A stretch of 10,389 bases of DNA from Methylococcaceae bacterium. GTDB taxonomy: Bacteria; Pseudomonadota; Gammaproteobacteria; Methylococcales; Methylomonadaceae. The position numbers were made by a program, and so were the translations under genes. The notes under the pieces are model-generated. The model did no database searches. It was not told where the DNA came from and was given only the letters and a program-made list of their open reading frames with translations. This document shows, one piece after another, positions 1 through 10,389 of the stretch (the stretch's first letter is position 1; each line of letters opens with the position of its first letter). The stretch covers positions 1 through 10,389 of the forward strand of contig JABFST010000227.1 in assembly GCA_013140465.1 (NCBI GenBank), given 5' to 3'.

Positions 1-320
1 TACAAGACCAAATTATTTTTACCGTGCATTTTTTAAATCATGGGCGCATGGTCGGTTGCCGTATAGAAGAGCTGATTGGTGTGGATGAACCGTGGAACCC
101 TAGCCGCTTTGAGTTTAGGGATAGGGTGGTGTGTTCGATAGACTTGGGCATCCAAGGCCAAGTGTTGTTTGCCAAAGGCACGGAAGGCGAAGTCTTTAAA
201 GTCATCCGCGACACTGCCAACATCCAATACCATGTCGCTTTTGATGGCCGGGTTTTGCAAGTGCCGGAAGCCGCACTTGCGCCCTTGCACCCAGACACTT
301 TTGTTGAGCCGGAGCAGTGA
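1..320 (+). CDS. nifZ: NifZ, C-terminal part (5' end outside window)
   Basis: NifZ helps mature the MoFe protein of nitrogenase (P-cluster formation on the second half of NifDK). The reading frame is open to the first base of the window: the codons before the GTG at 24 read QDQIIFT, and the run DQIIF-VHFL-GR-VGCR-EEL is a hallmark of NifZ as I remember it from Azotobacter. The GTG at 24 is therefore an internal Val, not a start. The C-terminal part has the usual second small beta-barrel-like segment (FEFRDRVVCSIDL, GTEGEVFKV, YHVAFDGRVLQVPE). The stop TGA at 318-320 lies one base before the nifM ATG, so the two are translationally coupled. About half to two thirds of the protein is seen; no cofactor-binding motif is expected. 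Confidence 0.9.
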   Translation, partial: QDQIIFTVHFLNHGRMVGCRIEELIGVDEPWNPSRFEFRDRVVCSIDLGIQGQVLFAKGTEGEVFKVIRDTANIQYHVAFDGRVLQVPEAALAPLHPDTFVEPEQ

Positions 321-321
321 G

Positions 322-1164
322 ATGGATGCCCTTAGCCCCAATCCTTATACTTTGTTGCGCACCGCCTTGGCGTTGTTTAAAAAACCGCCCCGGGATTTGT
401 CCGCCGAGCAATTGCAGCAAGCACAGCACCAAGCTAGCCATGAATTTAGTTTAGAAAGCAAAATACTCAACACCCCCGAAGCCAGCGGGGTGATTATTTC
501 CGATCACGAATTACAGGCGGCTTACCAAGAAATCAGAAGCCGTTATGACGACGAAACCACGTTTTTGTCTGACCTCGACCAAAACCAATTGGATCAAGAC
601 AGCCTGAATGCCGCGCTGTTCCGGCAATGCCGCGTTAATGTGGTGATGGACATCATCGGCTCGCGCTCGCCCAACATCAGCGAGATTGAAATCGGCATAT
701 ACTACCATCTGCACAAAGACCAATTTAACCGCCCCGAACAGCGCGAAGTCTGCCATATTTTTATCAGCATCAACCCCGATTATCCCGAAAACACACGCGC
801 CATCGCTTATGCCCGCTTGCACGAGATCCACGCCAAACTCGTCAAAAAACCCCATAAGTTTGCCGACTTGGCCTTGGCGCATTCGGAATGCCCGACCGCC
901 TTGCAGGGCGGCACTTTAGGCACAGTGCCGCGCGGCAAGTTGTACCCGGAGTTGGATACCGCCTTGTTTGCCTTAAAAGTCGGCGGCATCAGCGACATCG
1001 TGGAAACCGAAATCGGTTTCCATATCGTGTTATGCAAGCACATCCATAGTGCTCATACCTTATCGTTAGCCAAAGCCACACCCGCCATCCGCCAACTGAT
1101 GCAAGACCGCGCCCGGCGTACCTGCCAACGCGCGTGGTTGGCGGCCTTAGCCAAATCTTCTTAA
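322..1164 (+). CDS. nifM: NifM, nitrogenase Fe protein maturation prolyl isomerase
   Basis: NifM is a parvulin-type peptidyl-prolyl cis-trans isomerase needed for folding and dimer activation of NifH. I place the start at ATG 322 (MDALSPNPYTLL, 280 aa), which has GGAG at 311-314 seven bases upstream inside nifZ. The frame stays open further upstream (ATG at 169), but that stretch overlaps nifZ and is not used. Residues 1-130 are the NifM-type helical N-terminal region. Residues about 138-245 are a PpiC rotamase domain: REVCHIFISI at its start, then FADLALAHSECPTALQGG-LG and the closing VGGISDIVETEIGFHIV. Length fits known NifM proteins (about 265-290 aa). No signal peptide, so it is cytoplasmic. 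It sits between nifZ and clpX, as in Azotobacter. Confidence 0.93.
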   Translation: MDALSPNPYTLLRTALALFKKPPRDLSAEQLQQAQHQASHEFSLESKILNTPEASGVIISDHELQAAYQEIRSRYDDETTFLSDLDQNQLDQDSLNAALFRQCRVNVVMDIIGSRSPNISEIEIGIYYHLHKDQFNRPEQREVCHIFISINPDYPENTRAIAYARLHEIHAKLVKKPHKFADLALAHSECPTALQGGTLGTVPRGKLYPELDTALFALKVGGISDIVETEIGFHIVLCKHIHSAHTLSLAKATPAIRQLMQDRARRTCQRAWLAALAKSS

Positions 1165-1173
1165 GGAACCGTC

Positions 1174-2448
1174 ATGAGCGAGAAAGACCTGAAACATTGT
1201 TCTTTTTGTGGCATTGCCGCTTCACCCAGCGTGCCGTTAATAGCAGGTAGCGAAGGCACGATTTGCGGGTCTTGCGTACTGCTTGCCAACCAAGTGGTCA
1301 GCAATTGGAGCCGCAAAAAAGAACTGTCCGACATGCAGGGGCCATTGCCGATTCCGGCCAAAATTAAGGCACACCTGGACCAATACATTATTGGCCAAGA
1401 TTTGGCGAAAGAAATCTTGTCAGTGGCGGTGTATAACCACTACAAACGCCTGAAGCACGAAACTGGCAACACCGGTTTGGGTGAGTTTGCCACCGATGTG
1501 GAAATCGGCAAATCGAATATTTTGCTGATAGGCCCTTCGGGTACGGGCAAAACCTTGCTCGCCAGCACCTTAGCCAAAATTGTCGGCGTACCGTTTGTGA
1601 TTGCCGATGCGACCACGCTGACCCAAGCCGGGTATGTCGGTGATGATGTCGAAAATATTCTGGTGCGCTTGTTGGATGTCGCCGAAGGCAATAAGGCCAA
1701 TGCCGAATGGGGCATCGTCTATTTGGACGAAATTGACAAAATTGCCCGCAGCCCCGAACAACAAACTGGCACGCGCGATGTCTCCGGCGAAGGCGTGCAA
1801 CAAGCCTTGCTGCGTTTGGTGGAAGGCTCGCAAGTGAAAGTGTCGGGCAAAGGCCAACGCAATAAAGACGGCGATGCCACCTTGGATACCCGCAATATCT
1901 TGTTTATCGCGGGCGGCTCGTTCCCGGGCTTGGAAAAACACGTCGAAAAACGCTTAGTGCCGACCAACTCGGCCATTGGTTTTCATGCCGAAGTCACCAA
2001 CCCCGATGACAAGCCCGACTTGGAAGCTTTGCTGAATGCGACCCAACCCAGTGATTTGCGTAAATTTGGCCTGATTCCTGAATTTATCGGTCGTTTTCCA
2101 ATACTCGCGCCGCTAGAGCCGTTAGATGTCGAATCGTTAATTAAAGTGCTGACCGAACCCAAAAACGCCCTCGTCCGCCAATACCAACAACTGTTTGCCT
2201 ACGAAGGCGTAGAACTGACTTTTACCCATGAAGCCTTGGTCGCCATCGCCAACAAAGCCATCGAACGCGAAACTGGCGCGCGCGGCTTGCGCAGCATTAT
2301 GGAACAGATTTTACGGCGCACCATGTTTGATATGCCGTCTTGTGAAGACATCGAACAGTGTTTGGTTGATGCCGATACCGTGCAAGGCACAGGTGAAGTG
2401 CGCCTGATAAGGACAGCAGACGAAGCTATCAGGCAGCAAGCGGGTTAA
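1174..2448 (+). CDS. clpX: Nif-cluster ClpX paralogue, AAA+ unfoldase
   Basis: ATP-dependent unfoldase subunit of ClpXP, 424 aa, the usual ClpX length. The N-terminal zinc domain has Cys pairs C9/C12 and C31/C34. Walker A is GPSGTGKT (120-127), pore-1 loop GYVG (153-156), Walker B YLDEID with E186, the ClpP-docking IGF loop is at 268-270, the Arg finger is in EFIGRFP and sensor II in GARGLRS. All match E. coli ClpX in position. The RKH substrate loop near 228-230 is not conserved (QRNKDGD here). AAGGAA at 1163-1168 overlaps the nifM stop and serves ATG 1174. Azotobacter vinelandii has a second clpX in the same place, reported to control NifB and NifEN levels, so a similar nitrogenase-assembly role is inferred. 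The housekeeping clpX next to clpP must lie elsewhere. Confidence 0.93.
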
Positions 2449-2459
2449 GGTTATTTAAA

Positions 2460-2494
2460 CCCCCTCTCCCTCAGGGAGAGGGTAGGGTGAGGGG
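2460..2494. repeat. C/G-rich hairpin repeat after clpX
   Basis: CCCTCTCCCT (2462-2471) and AGGGAGAGGG (2473-2482) are perfect inverted arms around a single base, followed by a second G-rich tract to 2494 that could pair with the same left arm. Strings of this type recur between genes in many proteobacterial genomes. There is no T-run after it on the + strand, so it is at best a weak terminator or transcript-stabilising element between clpX and the Grx-BolA gene. Confidence 0.6.
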
Positions 2495-2633
2495 GATTTA
2501 ATGTCGCTTTACTTCCTGCATTCTCTATATGTTTGTTAAACACTTATTTAAGGTTACTTAACGCCCAATTGGCGTGCAAATCTTAATGCCGTAGCCGCTA
2601 ACCACTTAAAACCAATAACGCCCAGAGACTATC

Positions 2634-3251
2634 ATGACCACCGAAGAGAAAATCCGCCACCAACTCGCCACCAACCCTATCCTCATTTACATGAAAGGCA
2701 TCCCCAGCAACCCGCAATGTGGGTTTTCTGCCAAAGCCACGGGCCTGTTGAATGCCACCCACATTCCTTACGCCTACATCAACGTGTTGGAAGCCCCGTT
2801 TATCCGCGAAAAACTGCCCAGCATTTCGCACTGGCCCACTTACCCGCAGCTGTTTGTAAACGGTGAATTGGTGGGCGGCTGTGACATTGTTGAAGAAATG
2901 GCCAATAACGGTAGCTTATTGCCGTTACTGACCGCCGCCGTCCCCAAAAAACCCGAAGCCGAAGCCAAAACCGACACCATCAGCCCTGAGGCGGTAGCAC
3001 AACTCATCCAGCTCGCCATCACAGATGCCAAAGTAAAAATAGACGGCATCGGCTGTGATTTGACCATCACTGTAGTCAGCGAACAATTTGACGGCTTAAG
3101 CTTGGTTAAAAAACAGCAACAAGTGTTGGCTTGCCTTACCGCACCCTTGGCGACAGGCCAGTTACACGCCGTCAGCGTAAAAGCCTATACGCCCGATGAG
3201 TGGCTAGGCTTACAAACCCAACCCGCCGCTGGTTTGCTGCAAATACAATAG
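2634..3251 (+). CDS. Monothiol glutaredoxin-BolA (IbaG-type) fusion
   Basis: A 205-aa natural fusion. Residues 1-100 are a CGFS-type monothiol glutaredoxin (Grx4/GrxD class): CGFS at 29-32, WPTYPQLFVNGE at 67-78 and GGCDIV at 81-86, i.e. the glutathione and [2Fe-2S] site. A charged P/E/K/A linker (about 103-115) leads to a BolA domain (116-195) whose FDGLSLVKKQQ and HAVSVKAYTPDEW are close to E. coli IbaG. H178 is the conserved BolA His; C141 lies in the variable Cys/His ligand loop. CGFS glutaredoxins and BolA proteins form heterodimers bridged by a [2Fe-2S] cluster, so the fusion locks both partners together. Placement between nif clpX and nifF suggests Fe-S trafficking or sensing for nitrogenase. 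The upstream Shine-Dalgarno is weak (AGAG near 2624); no sigma-54 -24/-12 box was found. Confidence 0.92.
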   Translation: MTTEEKIRHQLATNPILIYMKGIPSNPQCGFSAKATGLLNATHIPYAYINVLEAPFIREKLPSISHWPTYPQLFVNGELVGGCDIVEEMANNGSLLPLLTAAVPKKPEAEAKTDTISPEAVAQLIQLAITDAKVKIDGIGCDLTITVVSEQFDGLSLVKKQQQVLACLTAPLATGQLHAVSVKAYTPDEWLGLQTQPAAGLLQIQ

Positions 3252-3300
3252 TGGCTTAACCGCCATACCGTGTAAAAACATTGAGTAATGCGAGGCCGCC

Positions 3301-3831
3301 ATGAGCAAAGTAGGCATATTTTTTGGCACAGATACAGGCAACACCCGACGTGTTGCCAAAGACATCGCCAACCAGTTAGGGGACATCGCCGCCAAACCGA
3401 TCAACATCCGTAACGCCAGCGTCGCGGATTTATTGGCTTATGACACCCTGATTTTAGGCACGCCGACTTATGGCGAAGGCGTGTTGCCCGGCTTGTCGGC
3501 AGGCACTGCCACCGCCAGTTGGGAAGAATTTTTGCCCAGTTTAAGCGGACAAGACTTTAGTGGCAAAAAAGTGGCAATTTACGGCTTGGGCAACCAAAAA
3601 TCGTATCCCAATGAATTTATCGATGCCGTATTTTATTTATACGAAGCCTTTAGCCGTTGCGGCGCAACCTTGATAGGCGACTGGGCCGTAGAGGGTTATC
3701 AGTTCAAGGCCTCCAAAGCCGTCATAGATGCGCGTTTTGTGGGCTTGGCCTTAGACCAAGAAAACCAGAAAGAACTGACCCCGACCCGCGTGGAAGCCTG
3801 GCTAGCCAGCTTGGCCTTAGGGGCTAGTTAA
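3301..3831 (+). CDS. nifF: Nif-specific flavodoxin NifF
   Basis: Long-chain flavodoxin, 176 aa, electron donor to the nitrogenase Fe protein. The FMN phosphate loop is T10-D-T-G-N-T15. The two isoalloxazine loops are TPTYGEG (54-60), with Y57 as the likely stacking residue, and GLGNQKSYP (95-103), with Y102. The motifs SWEEFLP, DFSGKKVAIYGLG and VGLALD match Azotobacter NifF as I remember it. GAGG at 3292-3295 is five bases before the ATG. It follows the Grx-BolA gene by 49 bp and is the last nif gene seen; a repeat-rich spacer comes next. Confidence 0.94.
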   Translation: MSKVGIFFGTDTGNTRRVAKDIANQLGDIAAKPINIRNASVADLLAYDTLILGTPTYGEGVLPGLSAGTATASWEEFLPSLSGQDFSGKKVAIYGLGNQKSYPNEFIDAVFYLYEAFSRCGATLIGDWAVEGYQFKASKAVIDARFVGLALDQENQKELTPTRVEAWLASLALGAS

Positions 3832-3872
3832 TACTCCAATTGTAGTTACAACTGCGCAAGTCACGCCTGAAA

Positions 3873-3905
3873 AGACCTGCGAGGTTTTTAAAACCTCGCA
3901 GGTCT
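3873..3905. repeat. Perfect palindrome with 16-bp arms
   Basis: AGACCTGCGAGGTTTT (3873-3888) and its exact reverse complement (3890-3905) surround one base. It starts 41 bp after the nifF stop and could fold into a very stable hairpin on either strand. This palindrome type is a widespread dispersed repeat in unrelated bacteria (from memory). It may act as a terminator for nifF although no T-run follows. Confidence 0.85.
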
Positions 3906-3913
3906 GCCGTTAG

Positions 3914-4050
3914 AGACTGTGAAAGAATTAACGTAAGCTTGCTCATCGGAGTGAAAAAACACGTTTTTTCACCAAAGTCTCTAATTAAAACAGATGCTTA
4001 CGAAAATAACAAACACCTTTTTGTGAGTATTTGAAATACTTTCACAGTCT
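3914..4050. mobile_element. 137-bp MITE with 12-bp terminal inverted repeats
   Basis: The ends are perfect inverted repeats: AGACTGTGAAAG (3914-3925) and CTTTCACAGTCT (4039-4050). Directly outside them is a 6-bp direct repeat, CGTTAG at 3908-3913 and 4051-4056, as expected for a target-site duplication. It has no coding capacity. Inside are two further hairpins: GTGAAAAAA/TTTTTTCAC (3951-3959/3964-3972) and AGTATTT/AAATACT (4026-4032/4034-4040). The insertion-sequence family that would move it is not identifiable from the ends alone. Confidence 0.85.
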
Positions 4051-4141
4051 CGTTAGTGCCTACAACTCATGAGTAGCTACATGCACTGTAGTTAATGCTT
4101 AAATTTTTGTAACTATTCAGAGCGACTTCTAATAAGTCAAA

Positions 4142-4187
4142 TTTACCGTAGGCTGAGCGGAGTCTTTACCGTAGGCTGAGCGGAGTC
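4142..4187 (+). repeat. 23-bp tandem duplication inside MITE copy 1
   Basis: Two perfect adjacent copies, 4142-4164 and 4165-4187, each beginning TTTACCGTAGG and ending GCGGAGTC. The shorter MITE copy at 10254-10377 has only one. Confidence 0.9.
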
Positions 4188-4211
4188 GAAGCTGGTTTGT
4201 TCGCTTCGGCT

Positions 4212-4291
4212 CCGCTCAGCGAACGGCTGTTCGGCTCAGCCTACGGCTGTTCCGCTCAGCGAACGGCTGTTCGGCTCAGCCTACGGCTGTT
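4212..4291 (+). repeat. Four 20-bp tandem units inside MITE copy 1
   Basis: Two alternating 20-mers, CCGCTCAGCGAACGGCTGTT and CGGCTCAGCCTACGGCTGTT, each occur twice, giving a perfect 40-bp period (4212-4251, 4252-4291). The other MITE copy has a single such unit (10278-10297, reverse strand). Confidence 0.9.
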
Positions 4292-4541
4292 GTGCCCCGT
4301 ATGCTGAATAGTTACAAATTTTTAACGGTGTGCAATGTCCCTAAAAGCAGATAGCAAAGCACCCCGATAGTGGACAATTTCGTAGGGGCAAATTTATTCG
4401 CCCTGTCTGCCAATTAAAAAACCCACAAATCAATAACAGGCTTTTTAACCCCAATTTAAGTTAAATAATAACTCCCCCGCATCGCGCCCTAGGTATACAC
4501 TGAGGCTCATTTTTAGCGATTATCCGATGGAGTGAGTTTTT

Positions 4542-5006
4542 ATGAAAAGCATTGTTGCCTCTTGCGCCTTATTGGGCGCGTTCTTAGCCCCTCTCGCCCA
4601 CGCCGAAGAAATTGGCTGTGTCACCACCTCTTGGAAACTGATCGGCTCTAACCACAAAGTCTGCGTACAAGCTTTTGACGACCCAAAAGTGCAGGGGGTC
4701 GCGTGTCACATCAGCCAAGCCCGCACAGGCGGTATTGCCGGGGCATTTGGCGTTGCCGAAGACCCGTCCCAGTTCTCTATCGCATGTCGGCAAGTAGGCC
4801 CTATCGTCATCAAAGAAAAACTGCCCGCAGAAGAAACCGCATTTACCGAAGACACCTCGTTGTTTTTTAAAGAAACCCGCGTCAACCGTATGTTCGATAC
4901 CAAACGCAATACCTTAATCTACGTCGCCATCAGCCGTAAGCTGATAGACGGCGCACCCGCCAACAGTATTTCTACCGTCCCTATCATGCCTTGGCATGAG
5001 CAATAA
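4542..5006 (+). CDS. creA: CreA family periplasmic protein
   Basis: A 154-aa homologue of E. coli CreA, a small exported protein of unknown biochemical function. The signal peptide is residues 1-21, with cleavage after AHA21, as in the E. coli protein (AHAEEIG). Shared segments include AFDDP (44-48), C55-H-I-S-A-R-TGGI, VAEDPSQFSIAC82, the FF..TRV..-FD-KRNTLIYVA region and the C-terminal VPIMPW. Besides the two family cysteines (C55, C82) the mature protein has two extra ones, C26 and C41, so a second periplasmic disulfide is possible. GGAG at 4529-4532 is nine bases before the ATG. It is followed 39 bp later by the next gene on the same strand. Confidence 0.9.
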   Translation: MKSIVASCALLGAFLAPLAHAEEIGCVTTSWKLIGSNHKVCVQAFDDPKVQGVACHISQARTGGIAGAFGVAEDPSQFSIACRQVGPIVIKEKLPAEETAFTEDTSLFFKETRVNRMFDTKRNTLIYVAISRKLIDGAPANSISTVPIMPWHEQ

Positions 5007-5045
5007 CGCCGCCGCTTTCCACACACTTTTAACCGAGCGTTGTTT

Positions 5046-5582
5046 ATGCACACCCGCACATTCCATTTCGCGCCGGGCTATGCCTCATCTTGGGCTGGCT
5101 TACGCGCCAAAATCGGTTTTACGCCTATTGTTCTGCTAACGTGCCTAGGGTTTGCCCACTCCGCACACGCAGCCCCCAATATCGCCAAAACCATACCTGT
5201 ACCCACAACAACATCCATTCAGGAGGGTAAGACCATGACCGAAAAAAGCTTGACTATGCCAGCAGCCAAACGCGTGGGGCCGGATGACGTGCCGCCCGTG
5301 ACCGTCAACGGTGTCCGTTATGAAGCCGTACATTGGGGCCGTAGGCGCGGATTGGAACAAAACGGCGGTTATATAGCCGCTATCGACAGTGCCAGCGGCA
5401 ACGAATTATGGCTGGCAAAAATCTACACGATTGAATACAACCCTAAGCTAGAAACCGATGTGCAAGATTTGTTTATCCAAACCATGCTAGTGGCTGACGA
5501 TAACAAAACCTTAAAAATAACCGATGAAGATGGCCGGGAATTTACCCTCGACTTAGCCACCCATACCGTTACTGCACATTAG
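5046..5582 (+). CDS. Conserved hypothetical protein with two possible starts
   Basis: No function assigned. From ATG 5046 the protein has 178 aa: a long basic leader, a hydrophobic core (about 25-37) and a signal-peptidase site after A42 (AHA|AP). From ATG 5235 it is a 115-aa cytoplasmic protein, and this start has a perfect AGGAGG (5221-5226) at eight-base spacing, whereas the upstream start has only a weak site. The conserved-looking core is VNGVRYEAVHWGRRRGL-QNGGYIAAID, then SGNELWLAKIY-IEYNP and VQDLFIQTM; the AAIDSASGNELW stretch resembles one blade of a PQQ-type beta-propeller repeat. The stop overlaps AGGAG (5581-5585), which serves the M35 gene 13 bp downstream, so the two are likely co-translated. 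An immunity or chaperone role for that neighbour is only a guess. Confidence 0.75.
   Translation: MHTRTFHFAPGYASSWAGLRAKIGFTPIVLLTCLGFAHSAHAAPNIAKTIPVPTTTSIQEGKTMTEKSLTMPAAKRVGPDDVPPVTVNGVRYEAVHWGRRRGLEQNGGYIAAIDSASGNELWLAKIYTIEYNPKLETDVQDLFIQTMLVADDNKTLKITDEDGREFTLDLATHTVTAH
5221..5226 (+). promoter_or_regulatory. Perfect internal Shine-Dalgarno AGGAGG
   Basis: AGGAGG lies eight bases before the in-frame ATG at 5235, inside the frame of the longer protein starting at 5046. It decides between an exported 178-aa form and a cytoplasmic 115-aa form, or allows both. Confidence 0.75.
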
Positions 5583-5595
5583 GAGCATCTAAATC

Positions 5596-6615
5596 ATGAA
5601 CACATTTACTGACGTGTATAACAAGGCATCAGAAGTGCTGAAAAACCAACTTTTTTTAAAAGAATGGGATGATTTTTTAAAGACCACGCTTGCGGCCCCC
5701 AGTTTTTTTACCGCCAAGGGCTTTGACAATGCCAAAAAAGACCTACCCGACAAAATCAGGCGCAAAATTAGCACCGACGCAGGTGTCGGCGTGGGCACCA
5801 GCAAAACGCAGGGTACTGTGATTTATAACGCTGCCGTCAATAGCGACTCATCCGGCGTGTTGGCGGAGCGTGCGGCAACGCTAAAAATGCTTAAGCACCT
5901 GCATTTGGTATTGCAAAAAGGCGGGCAACAAGTCTGGGTATATTCTCCGCCTAAGATGGACACTAAATGGGTGTTCGATGAGATTACAGGTTCAGACGCC
6001 ACGGTCAAGGCGCGCCTAGATCGCGAAGAAGAAATTTTCAGCAATGAAGAAAAACTCTGGATGTCAGATGCATTACAGTTGTCTTTAAAAATAGCCGAAG
6101 ACACCAAAGTCAAATTGGCGGGAGCCGCAACCTCAGATGCCACCAAAGCCGTGGTACGCAAATGGTTTCTTGACGAAGACAGCACCGACACCGATTTAAA
6201 CAACGCCATTACCACCTTGTCTGCGGGCTTTAATAAAATTGCCATTGCTTGTAACAACAACACCTTAGTATTTACAGATTATGCCGATTGGCGTTCCAAA
6301 CGTAACCGCTTTTTTGGCGGGGCGATACCAGGGGGTGAAGGCGGCGGTTTTCCGGTGATTTATCTGGAAGGGGCTTTTACGCGGCTTACAGGTAATAGCG
6401 GCAAAAAATGGCTGTGTGCGGAAACCATCATTCATGAAATGTCCCATCATGAGCTATCCACCGAAGACCACAAGTACGACAGCGACGGCCTAAAACCCAG
6501 CAAAGCGGCTTTACCTTATGCCAAAGCCATCGCTAATGCCGATAGCTGGGGATATTTTGCGATTGATTTGGCGGGTTATCTGTCTGCTACGGATTCTTTG
6601 AATGTGTTGAAATAA
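5596..6615 (+). CDS. Aspzincin (M35-like) zinc metallopeptidase
   Basis: A 339-aa protein with a C-terminal zinc-protease site. H280-E-M-S-H284 is the HExxH motif with catalytic E281; T289-E-D291-H-K-Y294 fits the GTxDxxYG aspzincin signature, making D291 the third zinc ligand. NADSWGYFAIDL near the C-terminus matches the NADS-Y(F)A stretch that closes the bacterial M35/LysMEP-like domain. The N-terminal 200 residues are alpha-helical and Lys/Glu-rich with no recognisable domain. There is no signal peptide or transmembrane segment, unlike fungal deuterolysins, so it is cytoplasmic or leaves by a dedicated secretion system. Bacterial members occur in effector-like proteins, so an effector role is possible but not shown. 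AGGAG at 5581-5585 is ten bases before the ATG. A hairpin with a T-run follows at 6632-6667. Confidence 0.85.
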   Translation: MNTFTDVYNKASEVLKNQLFLKEWDDFLKTTLAAPSFFTAKGFDNAKKDLPDKIRRKISTDAGVGVGTSKTQGTVIYNAAVNSDSSGVLAERAATLKMLKHLHLVLQKGGQQVWVYSPPKMDTKWVFDEITGSDATVKARLDREEEIFSNEEKLWMSDALQLSLKIAEDTKVKLAGAATSDATKAVVRKWFLDEDSTDTDLNNAITTLSAGFNKIAIACNNNTLVFTDYADWRSKRNRFFGGAIPGGEGGGFPVIYLEGAFTRLTGNSGKKWLCAETIIHEMSHHELSTEDHKYDSDGLKPSKAALPYAKAIANADSWGYFAIDLAGYLSATDSLNVLK

Positions 6616-6630
6616 TGGTGTAGGGACTTG

Positions 6631-6667
6631 GGCTGGGTTGGTGCAACGCATAAACCCAGCTTTTATT
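6631..6667 (+). terminator. Hairpin repeat with T-run after the M35 gene
   Basis: GCTGGGTT (6632-6639) pairs with AACCCAGC (6653-6660) across a 13-base loop, and TTTTATT follows at 6661-6667, as in a Rho-independent terminator. The 30-bp unit 6631-6660 recurs at 7285-7314 with one mismatch, so it is also a dispersed repeat. It sits 16 bp after the M35 stop. Confidence 0.65.
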
Positions 6668-6701
6668 GGGCTTACCCGCAATTAAGCCGCCTGAATAAGC
6701 C

Positions 6702-6716
6702 TTGCATTCGGTGCAA
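6702..6716. promoter_or_regulatory. Small inverted repeat upstream of the antitoxin gene
   Basis: TTGCA (6702-6706) and TGCAA (6712-6716) around TTCGG lie about 50 bp before the antitoxin ATG. Toxin-antitoxin pairs usually repress themselves, so this could be the operator, but the arms are short and it could be chance. Confidence 0.3.
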
Positions 6717-6764
6717 TACCCCTATCGCCTAGTGCGCCCTTGACCACACCTTAGGAGTTACACT

Positions 6765-6980
6765 ATGGACATAACCGAACTACATAAATTACCAGCACTT
6801 GAAAAGCTTAGTATTATTGAGTCTCTTTGGGGTGATTTAGTAACTGACGAAAGCAACCTTCCACAGCTGACGTGGCATGAAAGCGAACTCAAAGACACCG
6901 AAGATAATTTTTTGCTGGGCAACATCGAAATAGTTGATTGGCAAACAGCCAAGAAAGAATTGCGTTCAAAGTTTGAATGA
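6765..6980 (+). CDS. Antitoxin of an addiction module (PF09720 type)
   Basis: A 71-aa acidic protein with the layout of the 'putative addiction module component' family: L-ALEKLSIIESLWGDL (residues 9-25), then the LP-TWHESEL segment (32-42, W37-H38) and a C-terminal W59-Q-x-x-K-x-x-LR that would contact the toxin. AGGAG at 6753-6757 is seven bases before the ATG. Its last four bases (ATGA, 6977-6980) overlap the toxin start, typical of coupled toxin-antitoxin genes. It should neutralise the downstream ParE/RelE-fold toxin and repress the operon. The pair looks more AT-rich than the nif genes, which fits horizontal acquisition. Confidence 0.87.
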   Translation: MDITELHKLPALEKLSIIESLWGDLVTDESNLPQLTWHESELKDTEDNFLLGNIEIVDWQTAKKELRSKFE

Positions 6981-7285
6981 AAGTCCAAGTTCTTCGCTCA
7001 GCCATGAAAGACCTGGAAAGAGGCCGGAAATTTTACGATTGCCAACAATCAGGCGTAGGTGAGTATTTTTTCGACAGTCTTTTTTCTGAAATAGATTCGC
7101 TGGCACTTTACGCAGGTATCCATTCTGTCCATTTTGGATTTCATCGCCTATTAGCAAAACGTTTTCCTTACGCAATTTATTACAAGGTTATTGATAGTAA
7201 AGCGACCGTTTTCCGCATTCTTGATTGTAGGCGCGATCCAAGTCGGCTGCGTAAAGCGTTTAAAGTGGCTGTGAAAAAGCCCTAG
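6977..7285 (+). CDS. ParE/RelE-superfamily toxin
   Basis: A 102-aa basic protein of the ParE/RelE toxin fold. The N-terminus has the usual beta strand (VQVLRSAMKDLERG) followed by an amphipathic helix. The C-terminal half has FPYAIYYKVID (63-73) and VFRILDCRRDP (78-88), the typical last strands and Arg-rich end of this subgroup. These toxins either poison gyrase (ParE) or cut ribosome-bound mRNA (RelE); the sequence alone does not decide which. It is translated by 4-bp overlap from the antitoxin. Its stop codon shares its final G with the second copy of the 30-bp hairpin repeat. Confidence 0.87.
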   Translation: MKVQVLRSAMKDLERGRKFYDCQQSGVGEYFFDSLFSEIDSLALYAGIHSVHFGFHRLLAKRFPYAIYYKVIDSKATVFRILDCRRDPSRLRKAFKVAVKKP

Positions 7286-7314
7286 GCTGGGTTGGAGCAA
7301 CGCATAAACCCAGC
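7285..7314. repeat. Second copy of the 30-bp hairpin repeat
   Basis: Same orientation as 6631-6660 with one substitution (GGAGC here, GGTGC there). The arms GCTGGGTT/AACCCAGC are intact. It lies between the convergent toxin and NYN genes and may terminate one or both, but no good T-run follows on either strand. Confidence 0.8.
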
Positions 7315-7323
7315 TTACGAGTT

Positions 7324-7956
7324 TTACGTCAAATCTATTTTTAACGACATGTCAGAATGTTGAATCAAATCATCCTTAACCTCATGACCAAGACATACTA
7401 AGAACAACTGTGCGCCTTCTCGCCTGGCAAATTTCATAGCGGGTACAAAATCGCTATCACCTGTGACCAGTACGATAACGTGTGCCTGTTTTTTCAGGGT
7501 TAAAGAAGCAATATCAAGACCTATACGCATATCAACGCCTTTTTGGGTTATATTTGGCGATAGGTCATCCTTGCTGATCGTAATGGTTTCATGGCTATCA
7601 TTAAGGATTTTTTGGTTAAGCTTCCATCCCCTAAAAGCAACTTCTCCCAAGCGCAACGCAAAATAGGGGGCGTGGGACAATTTTTGTAACAAAGCTGAAT
7701 TATTTTTGGCAAGTGGCGTAGTGGCAAAATTCATACGTTCCGTTGAGAGTGGAACTTTAACGCGTTCTGTCAGCGGCGGGGAATCATAATAATAGATTCT
7801 GTGCAGGGACATTTGCTGTAATATCTCGTGCCGTTTAAGACGTTCGGCAAAATCAATGATTTTTTCAGCAGTTGCAGGATTTTCTTGGGATCCAAGCTTT
7901 CTTTTCAAAAAGCCAGCATCAATAAGGATGGCGTAGTTTTTCAATGGTTTGGACAA
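7324..7956 (-). CDS. NYN-domain (LabA/DUF88-like) putative ribonuclease
   Basis: A 210-aa protein with the PIN-like NYN fold. Acidic metal-site residues are visible: D13 in YAILIDAGF, D142 and D148 in KGVDMRIGLDIA, and D167/D169 in VTGDSDFVPA, the canonical NYN motif. The family is thought to act on RNA; the substrate here is unknown. The start is a TTG (7954-7956) with only a poor GAGG further upstream. The frame stays open to a stop at 8026-8028 but contains no ATG or GTG, so TTG 7956 is the best guess and an eroded N-terminus is possible. It converges with the toxin gene, 38 bp apart, and is AT-rich like it. Confidence 0.85.
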   Translation of the reverse strand: MSKPLKNYAILIDAGFLKRKLGSQENPATAEKIIDFAERLKRHEILQQMSLHRIYYYDSPPLTERVKVPLSTERMNFATTPLAKNNSALLQKLSHAPYFALRLGEVAFRGWKLNQKILNDSHETITISKDDLSPNITQKGVDMRIGLDIASLTLKKQAHVIVLVTGDSDFVPAMKFARREGAQLFLVCLGHEVKDDLIQHSDMSLKIDLT

Positions 7957-8342
7957 AAAAAATTGGCCTCGGATACGCGCGGAGCCGAAGCCCTCTTGGA
8001 TTGTAGCGAGTATGGAGGCCGTTTTTTATAAGCAACTAGTATAATTTATTGCCAATCACTATTCAAGGCATCGCTAAAATACGAATAAGGGCTAACTATC
8101 CAAATATCCTGCCACAATCCAGCATTTCAACGCGCCGAATGATTAGGCTTAACGGCATCAACGTAGAGATGATTAAGCCAGCCCAATACAACTATCGCCT
8201 ATTGCGCCCTACCAGCTACAAGCCGAATAACGCTCACCTCCCCGCCCACTACGGCAAACTTGACGGGCATAGGGATTGCCTTTATCTTGTCCGACCCTTT
8301 CTTTTGCAGGTACTCAGCCTGCGCCTGACCTCAGGATCGACC
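7957..8342. other. 386-bp intergenic region between divergent genes
   Basis: It lies between the NYN gene (-) and the sterol-reductase gene (+). The reductase frame is open back to a TTG at 8049, but the extra 98 residues resemble no part of the family, and a good start exists at 8343, so I treat 8049-8342 as leader. A TATAAT at 8040-8045 could be a -10 box for the + strand, without a clear -35. The stretch CTATCGCCTATTGCGCCCT (8192-8210) is nearly identical to 6721-6739 upstream of the antitoxin gene (one mismatch); meaning unknown. Confidence 0.55.
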
Positions 8343-9923
8343 ATGATAAAAGCCGGCCCCTTGTTTGAACATATCCTTACCCATTATCGCGGCCTGTTTG
8401 CCACGGTGTTTTTGTTGCCCATTTCCGCCGTTTATAGTGCCTATAACACCTTGCGTAACCGCTGGGTGTTTGCGATGAACAGTGCGCCCGCCAAACACGA
8501 ACAGCGAGTGCAACAGGTCATCAGCCAAATTAAGGCATGGCAAGCCGACGGCAGCCCGCAAAAATTGTGTACCGCGCGTTCGGGCTGGAAAACCATGAGC
8601 GAAATGGTGCCTAAATACAAACTGTCGCACCGCAACATCCACGTCAATCTCTACGATATATTGGAATTGTCTGCCGAACGCCAAACCGTGCGCGTAGAGC
8701 CGTTGGCAACAATGGGGCAAATTACCCGCAGCTTATTGTCTAAAGGCTGGACTTTGGCGGTCGTACCCGAGTTGGATGATTTGACCGTAGGCGGATTGGT
8801 GATGGGTTTTGGCGTGGAATCCAGCAGCCACAAATATGGCTTGTTCCAATCGATCTGCGTAGCGTTTGATGTCGTCACGGCAGACGGACAATGCCACCAT
8901 TGCAGTGCCACCGAAAACCCCGAGCTGTATTATTTGCTGCCGTGGAGTCATGGCACGCTGGGTTTTTTGGTCGCAGCAGAGCTAAAAATTATTCCGGCAA
9001 AAAAATATGTCCGCGTCCATTACCAGCCTGTGACCAGCTTGGCGGCAATGGTGTCCGAATTTACCGCCGCTAGCCGCGACACCACAGGCACAGATTTTGT
9101 CGAAGGCTTGGTGTACAGCCGCGACACAGCAGTGATTATGCGCGGCACACTGACCGATGACATTGCCGCAGACAGCCCGCTCAACCCAATAGGCCGATGG
9201 TATAAGCCGTGGTTTTACCAACACGTCGCCCAGTTTTTGACCAACCCCCAAGGTGCTTATGAAACTATCCCGCTACGCCATTATTACCATAGGCACACCC
9301 GCAGTTATTTTTGGGCAATGGAAGAAATCATCCCGTTTGGCAACCAAGCGTGGTTTAGGGCCTTATTAGGCTGGGCCTTGCCGCCGCGCATTGAGCTGTT
9401 GAAATATACCGAAACCGAAACCACGCGCAAGCTGCGTGAGCAGTTTTATGTCGTACAAGATATGCTAATGCCAATAGCACATCTTAAAACCTCCATAGAG
9501 TATTTCGACACGCATTTTAATTTATACCCCTTGTGGCTTTCGCCTATGGCAGTGTATGGCAATCAGCAAGGCTTGGGTTTTGTCCATCCCTATACCCATA
9601 ATGGCGCGGTAGATGAAATGTATGTCGATATTGGCGCCTACGGCACACCACGCAAAGCCCAGTTTAACAGCCATCAGGCATTACCCGGCTTAGAAAAGTT
9701 TGTGCTGCAACACCACGGCTACCAAGCCTTATACGCCAAAACCCTATTAAACCGCGACGACTTTAGGGCCATGTTTGACCACAGCGGTTACGACCGCTTA
9801 CGCGCACAATTGCCCTATTGCCAACAGGCGTTTGATGAGGTTTATGATAAGGTGTCCGCTAACGGGCGGGTGTCACCCGTAGAAATGCGCAAATTGCAGA
9901 GCCAGCGTAAACCGAAAGCGTAA
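8343..9923 (+). CDS. DHCR24-like delta24-sterol reductase (FAD-dependent)
   Basis: A 526-aa FAD-dependent oxidoreductase strikingly like animal 24-dehydrocholesterol reductase (human DHCR24, 516 aa), which reduces the C24-C25 double bond of the sterol side chain using NADPH. Colinear landmarks: an N-terminal membrane anchor (about 17-40, FATVFLLPISAVYSAYN), RWVF...SAPAKHEQRV, the PCMH FAD domain with PELDDLTVGGL (142-152) and ESSSHKYGLF (159-168), GTLGFLVAAE, YKPWFYQHV, IPLRHYYHRHTRS (309-321), IIPFGN, and DIGAYG-PR near the C-terminus. ATG 8343 has AGGA at 8333-8336 and gives the family length. It stands alone, with no other sterol gene in the window. Sterol synthesis is known in some Methylococcales. 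Activity on another isoprenoid cannot be excluded. Confidence 0.9.
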   Translation: MIKAGPLFEHILTHYRGLFATVFLLPISAVYSAYNTLRNRWVFAMNSAPAKHEQRVQQVISQIKAWQADGSPQKLCTARSGWKTMSEMVPKYKLSHRNIHVNLYDILELSAERQTVRVEPLATMGQITRSLLSKGWTLAVVPELDDLTVGGLVMGFGVESSSHKYGLFQSICVAFDVVTADGQCHHCSATENPELYYLLPWSHGTLGFLVAAELKIIPAKKYVRVHYQPVTSLAAMVSEFTAASRDTTGTDFVEGLVYSRDTAVIMRGTLTDDIAADSPLNPIGRWYKPWFYQHVAQFLTNPQGAYETIPLRHYYHRHTRSYFWAMEEIIPFGNQAWFRALLGWALPPRIELLKYTETETTRKLREQFYVVQDMLMPIAHLKTSIEYFDTHFNLYPLWLSPMAVYGNQQGLGFVHPYTHNGAVDEMYVDIGAYGTPRKAQFNSHQALPGLEKFVLQHHGYQALYAKTLLNRDDFRAMFDHSGYDRLRAQLPYCQQAFDEVYDKVSANGRVSPVEMRKLQSQRKPKA

Positions 9924-9998
9924 TGTCATGGCGTTAGCTGTTGTACCTTAGCCCCCATCACTATGCACAACTCTCCAGCAGTAAACGGCGTAGGTTCA

Positions 9999-10084
9999 CC
10001 CTTTGAAAAAGGGGGAGAGCTTGCGAGGGGTCTGAGGGGGGGTATTCAATAAACCTTCCCTAACCCCTCCTTTTTAAGGAGGGG
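9999..10084. repeat. Pair of C/G-rich hairpins
   Basis: CCCTTT/AAAGGG (9999-10004/10008-10013) and CCCCTCCTT/AAGGAGGGG (10064-10072/10076-10084, loop TTT) flank a G-rich then C-rich stretch that can partly pair with itself. The layout recalls the hairpin at 2460-2494. It may end transcription of the sterol reductase gene. The right arm also supplies an AGGAGG (10077-10082) eight bases before an ATG at 10091, probably by chance. Confidence 0.6.
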
Positions 10085-10123
10085 GACTGAATGTTTACTC
10101 ATCATCAAATCGTTATGTTAACA

Positions 10124-10157
10124 ATAGACTGGATAGAAAAATAGACTGGATAGAAAA
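10124..10157 (+). repeat. 17-bp tandem duplication
   Basis: ATAGACTGGATAGAAAA occurs twice back to back (10124-10140, 10141-10157). Seventeen is not a multiple of three, so it shifts the frame of the broken gene. Confidence 0.95.
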
Positions 10158-10253
10158 ATCCGTTCACAATGAAAACTATCGCTACTCACGGCATGGCGAC
10201 CAAGAACGACAAAATGATAATTTAGCCTTCATCGACGTACACCAAGCTTTGTT

Positions 10254-10377
10254 GTAACTATTCAGCATCCGGGACACAACAGCCGTTCGCTGAGCGGAGT
10301 CGAAGCGAACAAACCGGCTTCGACTCCGCTCAGCCTACGGTAAATTTGACTTATTAGAAGTCGCTCTGAATAGTTAC
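10254..10377 (-). mobile_element. GTAA-ended MITE, copy 2 (124 bp, inverted)
   Basis: It has the same 12-bp perfect ends as copy 1 (10254-10265 and 10366-10377), flanked by a perfect 8-bp direct repeat GCTTTGTT (10246-10253 and 10378-10385). Its right end equals the left end of copy 1 in reverse complement, identical over at least 56 bp, so it lies in the opposite orientation. The interior forms an 18-bp perfect stem (GCTGAGCGGAGTCGAAGC at 10289-10306 with 10317-10334) around a 10-base loop. It interrupts the short gene starting near 10115. Confidence 0.92.
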
Positions 10378-10389
10378 GCTTTGTTAAAC

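Follow-up and report, generated by a model that had tools for sequence, protein, structure and literature searches.

A high-copy MITE family with stepwise hairpin arrays and IS66-like ends in a Methylococcaceae genome

The locus and its two inserted elements

The DNA analysed here, referred to throughout as the window, is a stretch of 10,389 nucleotides from a Methylococcaceae bacterium (assembly GCA_013140465.1, contig JABFST010000227.1, positions 1 to 10,389 of the forward strand). A run of genes at 1174-3831 encodes a ClpX-like AAA protein, a glutaredoxin-BolA fusion and a flavodoxin, which we presume may be part of a nitrogen-fixation cluster. Two repeats follow these genes, namely a 35-base palindrome at 3871-3905 (AGACCTGCGAGGTTTT...AAACCTCGCAGGTCT), which is repeated in the host genome and found in at least 8 places in the relative G002, and a 139-bp MITE-like repeat at 3913-4051, which ends in GAGACTGTGAAAG / CTTTCACAGTCTC, is bounded by GTTA on each side and matches many of the fetched host stretches. 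Further along, a small Unstab_antitox / ParE-like toxin-antitoxin pair (6765-7285) is adjoined by an NYN-domain gene on the opposite strand (7324-7956). Two copies of the short element that is our main subject are inserted in the window, one on either side of the toxin-antitoxin pair.

Copy 1 (207 bp, 4109-4315, plus strand) is delimited by the 12-bp perfect terminal inverted repeats, beginning with GTAA, that the earlier note had described: GTAACTATTCAG occupies 4109-4120 on the plus strand and 4304-4315 on the minus strand, with 12 of 12 tip bases matching. An exact 8-bp direct repeat, AAATTTTT, flanks the element at 4101-4108 and 4316-4323. Between the ends lie, on the plus strand, a left subterminal segment, AGCGACTTCTAATAAGTCAAATTTACC (4121-4147), which is common to nearly all listed copies; an extra 23-bp left-arm unit, GTAGGCTGAGCGGAGTCTTTACC (4148-4170); three 20-bp right-arm units, GGCTGTTCGGCTCAGCCTAC / GGCTGTTCCGCTCAGCGAAC / GGCTGTTCGGCTCAGCCTAC (4225-4284); and a right subterminal segment (4285-4303). 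The center, at 4171-4224, is a hairpin with 22-bp arms, built on the core CTGAGCGGAGTCGAAG, and a 10-base loop. The length of copy 1 accordingly equals 124 bp plus one 23-bp and three 20-bp units.

Copy 2 (10254-10377, minus strand) is the basic 124-bp form, inverted relative to copy 1. It carries the same 12-bp ends (10254-10265, plus strand; 10366-10377, minus strand) around a central hairpin at 10285-10338, and its 8-bp duplication, GCTTTGTT at 10246-10253 and 10378-10385, is likewise exact and of a different sequence, just as previously noted. Past the perfect 12 bases, the two ends of the window copies differ, reading AGCGACTTCTAATAAGTC... on one side and CATMCGGGRCACAACAG... on the other. 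With up to 2 mismatches allowed, the window contains 5 occurrences of the tip, compared with a mean of 0.56 in shuffled sequence (0 of 200 shuffles reach 5), and folding of the whole elements relative to shuffled sequence gave z = -9.5 for copy 1 and z = -8.4 for copy 2.

Copies, insertion sites and stepwise lengths in the host genome

The host assembly (3.60 Mb in 507 contigs, 83% complete) contains 73 + 72 = 145 exact tips; the reversed control pattern gave 0 + 0. Pairing of tips with up to 1 mismatch each in the fetched stretches resolved 68 unique two-ended elements, 123-284 bp in span, with both tips exact in 61. Additional lone tips, mostly near contig ends, were left unpaired, and the true copy number is therefore somewhat above 68. 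The elements are short, present in many copies and devoid of a transposase gene, with 12-bp terminal inverted repeats and target duplications, and belong to a known kind, the bacterial MITE.

Both flanks could be read for 66 copies, contig ends cutting those of the other 2. The 8-bp flanks match at 8 of 8 positions in 53 copies, at 7 of 8 in 7, and less well in 6, three of which belong to tandem pairs (L063 twice, L102); the two L063 cases are the halves of a single tandem dimer, the outer flanks of which match each other. The recurrence of 8-bp duplications at further copies, on which the earlier note had staked its proposal, is thus observed in most of the family. The 53 exact duplications comprise 50 distinct sequences with 73% A+T; no fixed target motif was seen among them, although position 2 is often A and position 7 often T.

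A search of relatives for an empty site corresponding to copy 1 yielded none, because, where both flanking genes were matched, the matches lay on separate contigs or far apart; within-genome paralogs were therefore used. When the element and one duplication were removed and the joined flanks were matched within the host genome, an uninterrupted paralogous match was obtained for 11 of 60 sites. Six of these we judged to be true empty-site counterparts (L003, L006, L014, L095, L106, L116); the remaining five were classed as tandem or self matches. Among the empty sites, L006 is the most clear-cut: the element there is inserted inside another repeat that occurs elsewhere in the genome uninterrupted. 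At L095 (1007-1151) and L106 (80-223), the insertions lie at an identical position of the 139-bp GAGAC-ended host repeat and have one duplication sequence in common (AATTCTTT); they may therefore represent one event copied together with that repeat, suggesting that one MITE travelled as a passenger of another. Insertions avoid genes and are mostly intergenic: an open frame of at least 120 codons crosses 5 of 48 empty sites, compared with 572 of 983 positions drawn at random from the same stretches.

Several copies of the 139-bp repeat have elements of this family (family A), or of a second family described below (family B), inserted in or beside them. Its GAGAC tips resemble those of IS5-family elements included in a published table (PMC4596501).

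Beyond what the earlier note had described, the interior of the element is a hairpin array that varies in length by steps. The basic 124-bp copy consists of a tip, 27 bp, a 54-base hairpin with 22-bp arms, 19 bp and the other tip; in longer copies, one flank of the hairpin gains 23-bp units and the other 20-bp units, every added unit being a piece of a hairpin arm together with its spacer. The length equals 124+23a+20b in 61 of the 68 copies, whereas only 24% of the integers from 124 to 301 can be written in this form. The added units do not always have the consensus sequence (two of the three 20-bp units of copy 1 are in variant form), and only some of the copies have a length that exact consensus units alone explain. 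The simplest cause of unit gain would be replication slippage at the hairpin, and the series of lengths can be viewed as a record of hairpin-arm duplication over many copies.

The hairpin core in other MITE families

The 16-base arm core has 236 exact occurrences in the host assembly and its reversed control has 0. We sampled 20 host loci, including sites outside family A, some family A sites and a RAYT stretch. When ends and duplications flanking the palindromes were sought generically, chance matches abounded, with scores of up to 18.5 at 60 random positions; therefore, named end patterns were used with a control, in which random positions gave 21 matches in 2965. Four end types (A-D) were tried. 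Of the 24 two-armed palindromes in the 20 host loci and the window, 7 lie between family A ends and 12 between family B ends, the other 5 matching no end type tried. Among 29 palindromes from relatives, there were 3 B, 7 C and 1 D, the remaining 18 having none, and the 66 palindromes in 80 listed loci of named genomes divided into 9 B, 11 C, 1 D and 45 none.

The second family, B (L192-L205 and L210, on host contigs), has GGCTACTCACTTAAAGCGGG / GGCTTCCCGTTTAAGCTGGG ends, is about 123 bp and longer, and combines the same core with 8-bp duplications; 10 of its 12 host cases have direct repeats 8 or 9 bp long. A search of the host assembly for an IS1595 transposase (PF12762) that might serve this GGCTAC-ended family gave 0 matches. 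The third family, C (L256, L271, L288, L343), has CAATGYCRTTAAGTTAAG ends around the same hairpin core, with duplications of 10-12 bp in 5 of 18 elements and mostly none in the others. At least two further MITE families, whose ends differ, thus contain the core.

In named genomes, the palindrome was found in at least 86 stretches. Judging by title, 44 of the 80 matches listed come from methanotrophs (Methylococcaceae, Methylobacter, Methylomonas, Methylococcus), and the rest from cyanobacteria, Bacteroidetes, Geobacter and others, a spread that makes the core wider than any of these MITEs. From the named genomes that have the palindrome in common with it, the host is itself probably a methanotroph of the Methylococcales. 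A tentative reading, which we favor somewhat less than its negation, is that the core is an independent hitch-hiker that has repeatedly entered MITE families using different transposases, thereby spreading by more than one engine while its arms expand by slippage; its hosts would then include elements with GTAACTATTCAG ends (8-bp duplications), with GGCTAC/GGCTTC ends (8-bp duplications) and with CAATGYCRTTAAGTTAAG ends (10-12-bp duplications). The core may move on its own, may be a favored target, or may have been exchanged among elements through recombination. The presence of one palindrome in differently ended families makes it testable whether such sequences are passive cargo, favored insertion targets or aids to movement.

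The putative transposase and competing explanations

The earlier note had proposed that the element is non-autonomous and moved in trans by an IS66-type transposase, and the elements found in other genomes support this assignment. An IS66-type protein query matched 28 of 121 genomes, with 29 loci, some overlapping, among the matches listed. Seven of these loci (L211, L219, L220, L221, L224, L226, L234) are two-ended elements of 1.5-1.8 kb with GTAA-type ends and exact 8-bp duplications, each with one long transposase frame except L226, in which the frame is split. PF03050 (DDE_Tnp_IS66) was matched by 9 of 9 transposase proteins scanned, that is, those of the seven elements and of L213 and L214, so that the carriers of related tips belong to the family the note had named. 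The tips of the two-ended elements are at least 1 base off the window tip (GTAAYTACTCAG, GTAACTACTCGC and similar, GTAACCGTTCAC): among the seven, a CAG-type tip is confined to L211, five others end in GTAACTACTC followed by C/G/A-rich sequence, and L234 ends in GTAACCGTTCAC. The exact 12-mer occurs at one end of six more IS66 loci (L163, L214, L216, L217, L225, L228), none of which has a matching second end and duplication; the transposase is interrupted by stops in L163, L216 and L217, L225 meets a contig end, and L214 retains a 486-codon frame.

Shorter relatives point the same way. L140, a MITE of genome G035, joins about 105 bp of one IS66 end (86% identical to L217) to 61 bp of the other end (97%, L216/L170), no part of the transposase intervening, and is an IS66 element without its transposase; its flanks show no duplication. 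A published element, ISDge4 of Deinococcus, which its authors assign to the ISBst12 group of IS66, has GTGACTACTCAGCA / GTAACTGCTCAGCA ends and one transposase gene, and a new insertion of it shows an 8-bp repeat (PMC12898284). Given the two-ended elements with related tips, the loci with the exact 12-mer, L140 and ISDge4, the ends can be assigned to IS66 with good support.

At least one exact tip is present in 31 of 61 genomes (the host and 60 relatives), most counts being at the level of the reversed control; the counts that stand above the rest are those of the host (145), G022 (22), G028 (23), G035 (13) and perhaps G040 (7). Same-tip MITEs with exact 8-bp duplications were found in G033 (L038, 165 bp), G016 (L048, 164 bp) and G035 (L138, 74 bp; L139, 143 bp). 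Genomes G022 and G028 also harbor MITEs of about 100 bp (L123, L130, L132, L137), with GTAACTATTCAG / GTAAGTATTCAC ends around a CCCCCTCTTTGAAAAAGAGGGG repeat and 8-bp duplications; in L123 (103 bp, G022), one end carries the exact tip and the other a variant differing by two bases.

The direct parent would, by its predicted ends, be an element with an IS66 transposase. Searches of the host assembly with PF03050 and an ISBst12-type protein revealed no autonomous IS66 partner with such ends, an absence that weighs little because the assembly is 83% complete and split into 507 contigs. The sole PF03050 locus in the host, C411, has several short frames ahead of the transposase, which we take to be tnpA/tnpB, and no window-type tip at up to 2 mismatches in 7 kb; the ISBst12-type protein had 0 matches in the host assembly. 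The subterminal sequences of family A matched none of the transposase-bearing loci compared, nor was the left end found in named genomes (40 bp, 0 matches) or in viral contigs (30 bp, 0 matches), collections from which records very near the window's genome may be missing.

We consider it very likely, from the comparison of ends and duplications, that the window elements belong to a non-autonomous MITE family whose 12-bp ends are recognized by an IS66-family transposase, of the ISBst12 type with a single gene, acting in trans. Such an enzyme would insert the element into AT-rich, mostly intergenic DNA by a staggered cut of 8 bp which, once filled in, would leave the 8-bp duplication that is observed. 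The interior of the element is a palindromic hairpin unit in which no transposase remnant is recognizable, its core being a widespread palindromic repeat, seen also in several MITE families with other ends, and units of 23 bp to one side of the hairpin and of 20 bp to the other were gained or lost in tandem during spread, probably by replication slippage.

Transposase families other than IS66 also generate 8-bp duplications. One of these (such as IS256, ISL3 or IS1595) could have mobilized the elements, the likeness of the tips to IS66 being convergent, and the lack in the host assembly of an autonomous IS66 partner bearing these tips fits such a scenario; we nevertheless regard it as highly improbable, given that six IS66 loci bear the exact 12-mer at one end, that seven two-ended IS66 elements have related tips and 8-bp duplications, and that a sister MITE in a relative is made up of both ends of an IS66 element. 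Even less probable, to the point of being nearly negligible, is a REP/REPIN-type palindrome spread by a RAYT (IS200/IS605-like) transposase, with the outer repeats incidental. The interior is indeed a high-copy palindrome (236 exact 16-mers against 0 in the reversed control), and in family A GTAG stands on one side of the hairpin, as in known REPs (PMC3733652). Against this, exact 8-bp duplications abut exact 12-bp ends, other families have GTTG or GTTC in place of GTAG, and the 3.2-kb stretch around the sole PF01797 match (C267) contains none of the four 8-base core pieces searched. On account of the 8-bp duplications, a RAYT origin of the whole element was rejected, and a role for a RAYT in the host is not supported in this incomplete assembly.

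A further possibility concerns retention rather than movement: the hairpin arrays could be kept for a putative action on neighboring genes, as terminators or promoters, the element being largely domesticated. The mostly intergenic location and the strong folds would suit this reading, as would BrickBuilt, a Porphyromonas gingivalis MITE with a 23-nt minisatellite, segments of which are described as capable of bidirectional promoter activity (PMC4596501). It seems unlikely all the same, since purifying selection alone also predicts the intergenic bias and the matches of relatives to both genes flanking copy 1 lie on separate contigs or far apart.

If the IS66/ISBst12 assignment holds, family A would be a clear case of a high-copy MITE of this type, with regular 8-bp duplications and nested empty sites, within a family of elements whose transposition is, according to the authors of the ISDge4 work, insufficiently characterized (PMC12898284). 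The ISBst12 group, as represented by ISDge4, resembles the window element in its tips and 8-bp duplication, and its single transposase gene is found in most of the two-ended relatives; unlike ISDge4, the window element encodes nothing, spans 123-284 bp and has subterminal sequences of its own. Full-text searches of the open literature with the tip, palindrome and other element sequences returned no publication that was related by its title or the start of its abstract, and none of the matches listed for MITEs with IS66 had a title naming an IS66-derived MITE; subscription papers lay outside the scope of both searches.

Precedents exist for both internal features of the element. Internal tandem repeats are known from BrickBuilt and MITEPgRS of P. 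gingivalis (23 and 41 nt, respectively), bacterial MITEs that share ends with IS elements of the same genomes and of which BrickBuilt, like most of family A, is intergenic; in the portion of that study available, they differ in having IS5-family ends and no constant duplication length, with 19 copies of which only 4 are two-ended (PMC4596501). In family A, by comparison with that account, it is a hairpin arm that is repeated, a single hairpin is flanked by units of two sizes, and the 8-bp duplications are regular. Nesting of a short palindrome in an inverted-repeat sequence has a counterpart in REP dimers within longer palindromes (GTAG-15 of Anabaena variabilis and others), for whose outer sequences the sections consulted assign no transposase and give no duplications (PMC3733652); the window core, unlike these dimers as there described, occurs in families with different ends and duplications. 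The variant features of the window element are therefore its two-sided, quantized hairpin-arm array and the presence of its core in MITE families with different ends and duplication lengths. Assignment of an IS parent through ends and duplication length has been made likewise for MITEAba12 of Acinetobacter, which differs in being of the ISAba12 type, with 9-bp duplications, a near-constant length of 111-114 bp and movement observed in the laboratory (PMC6382973).
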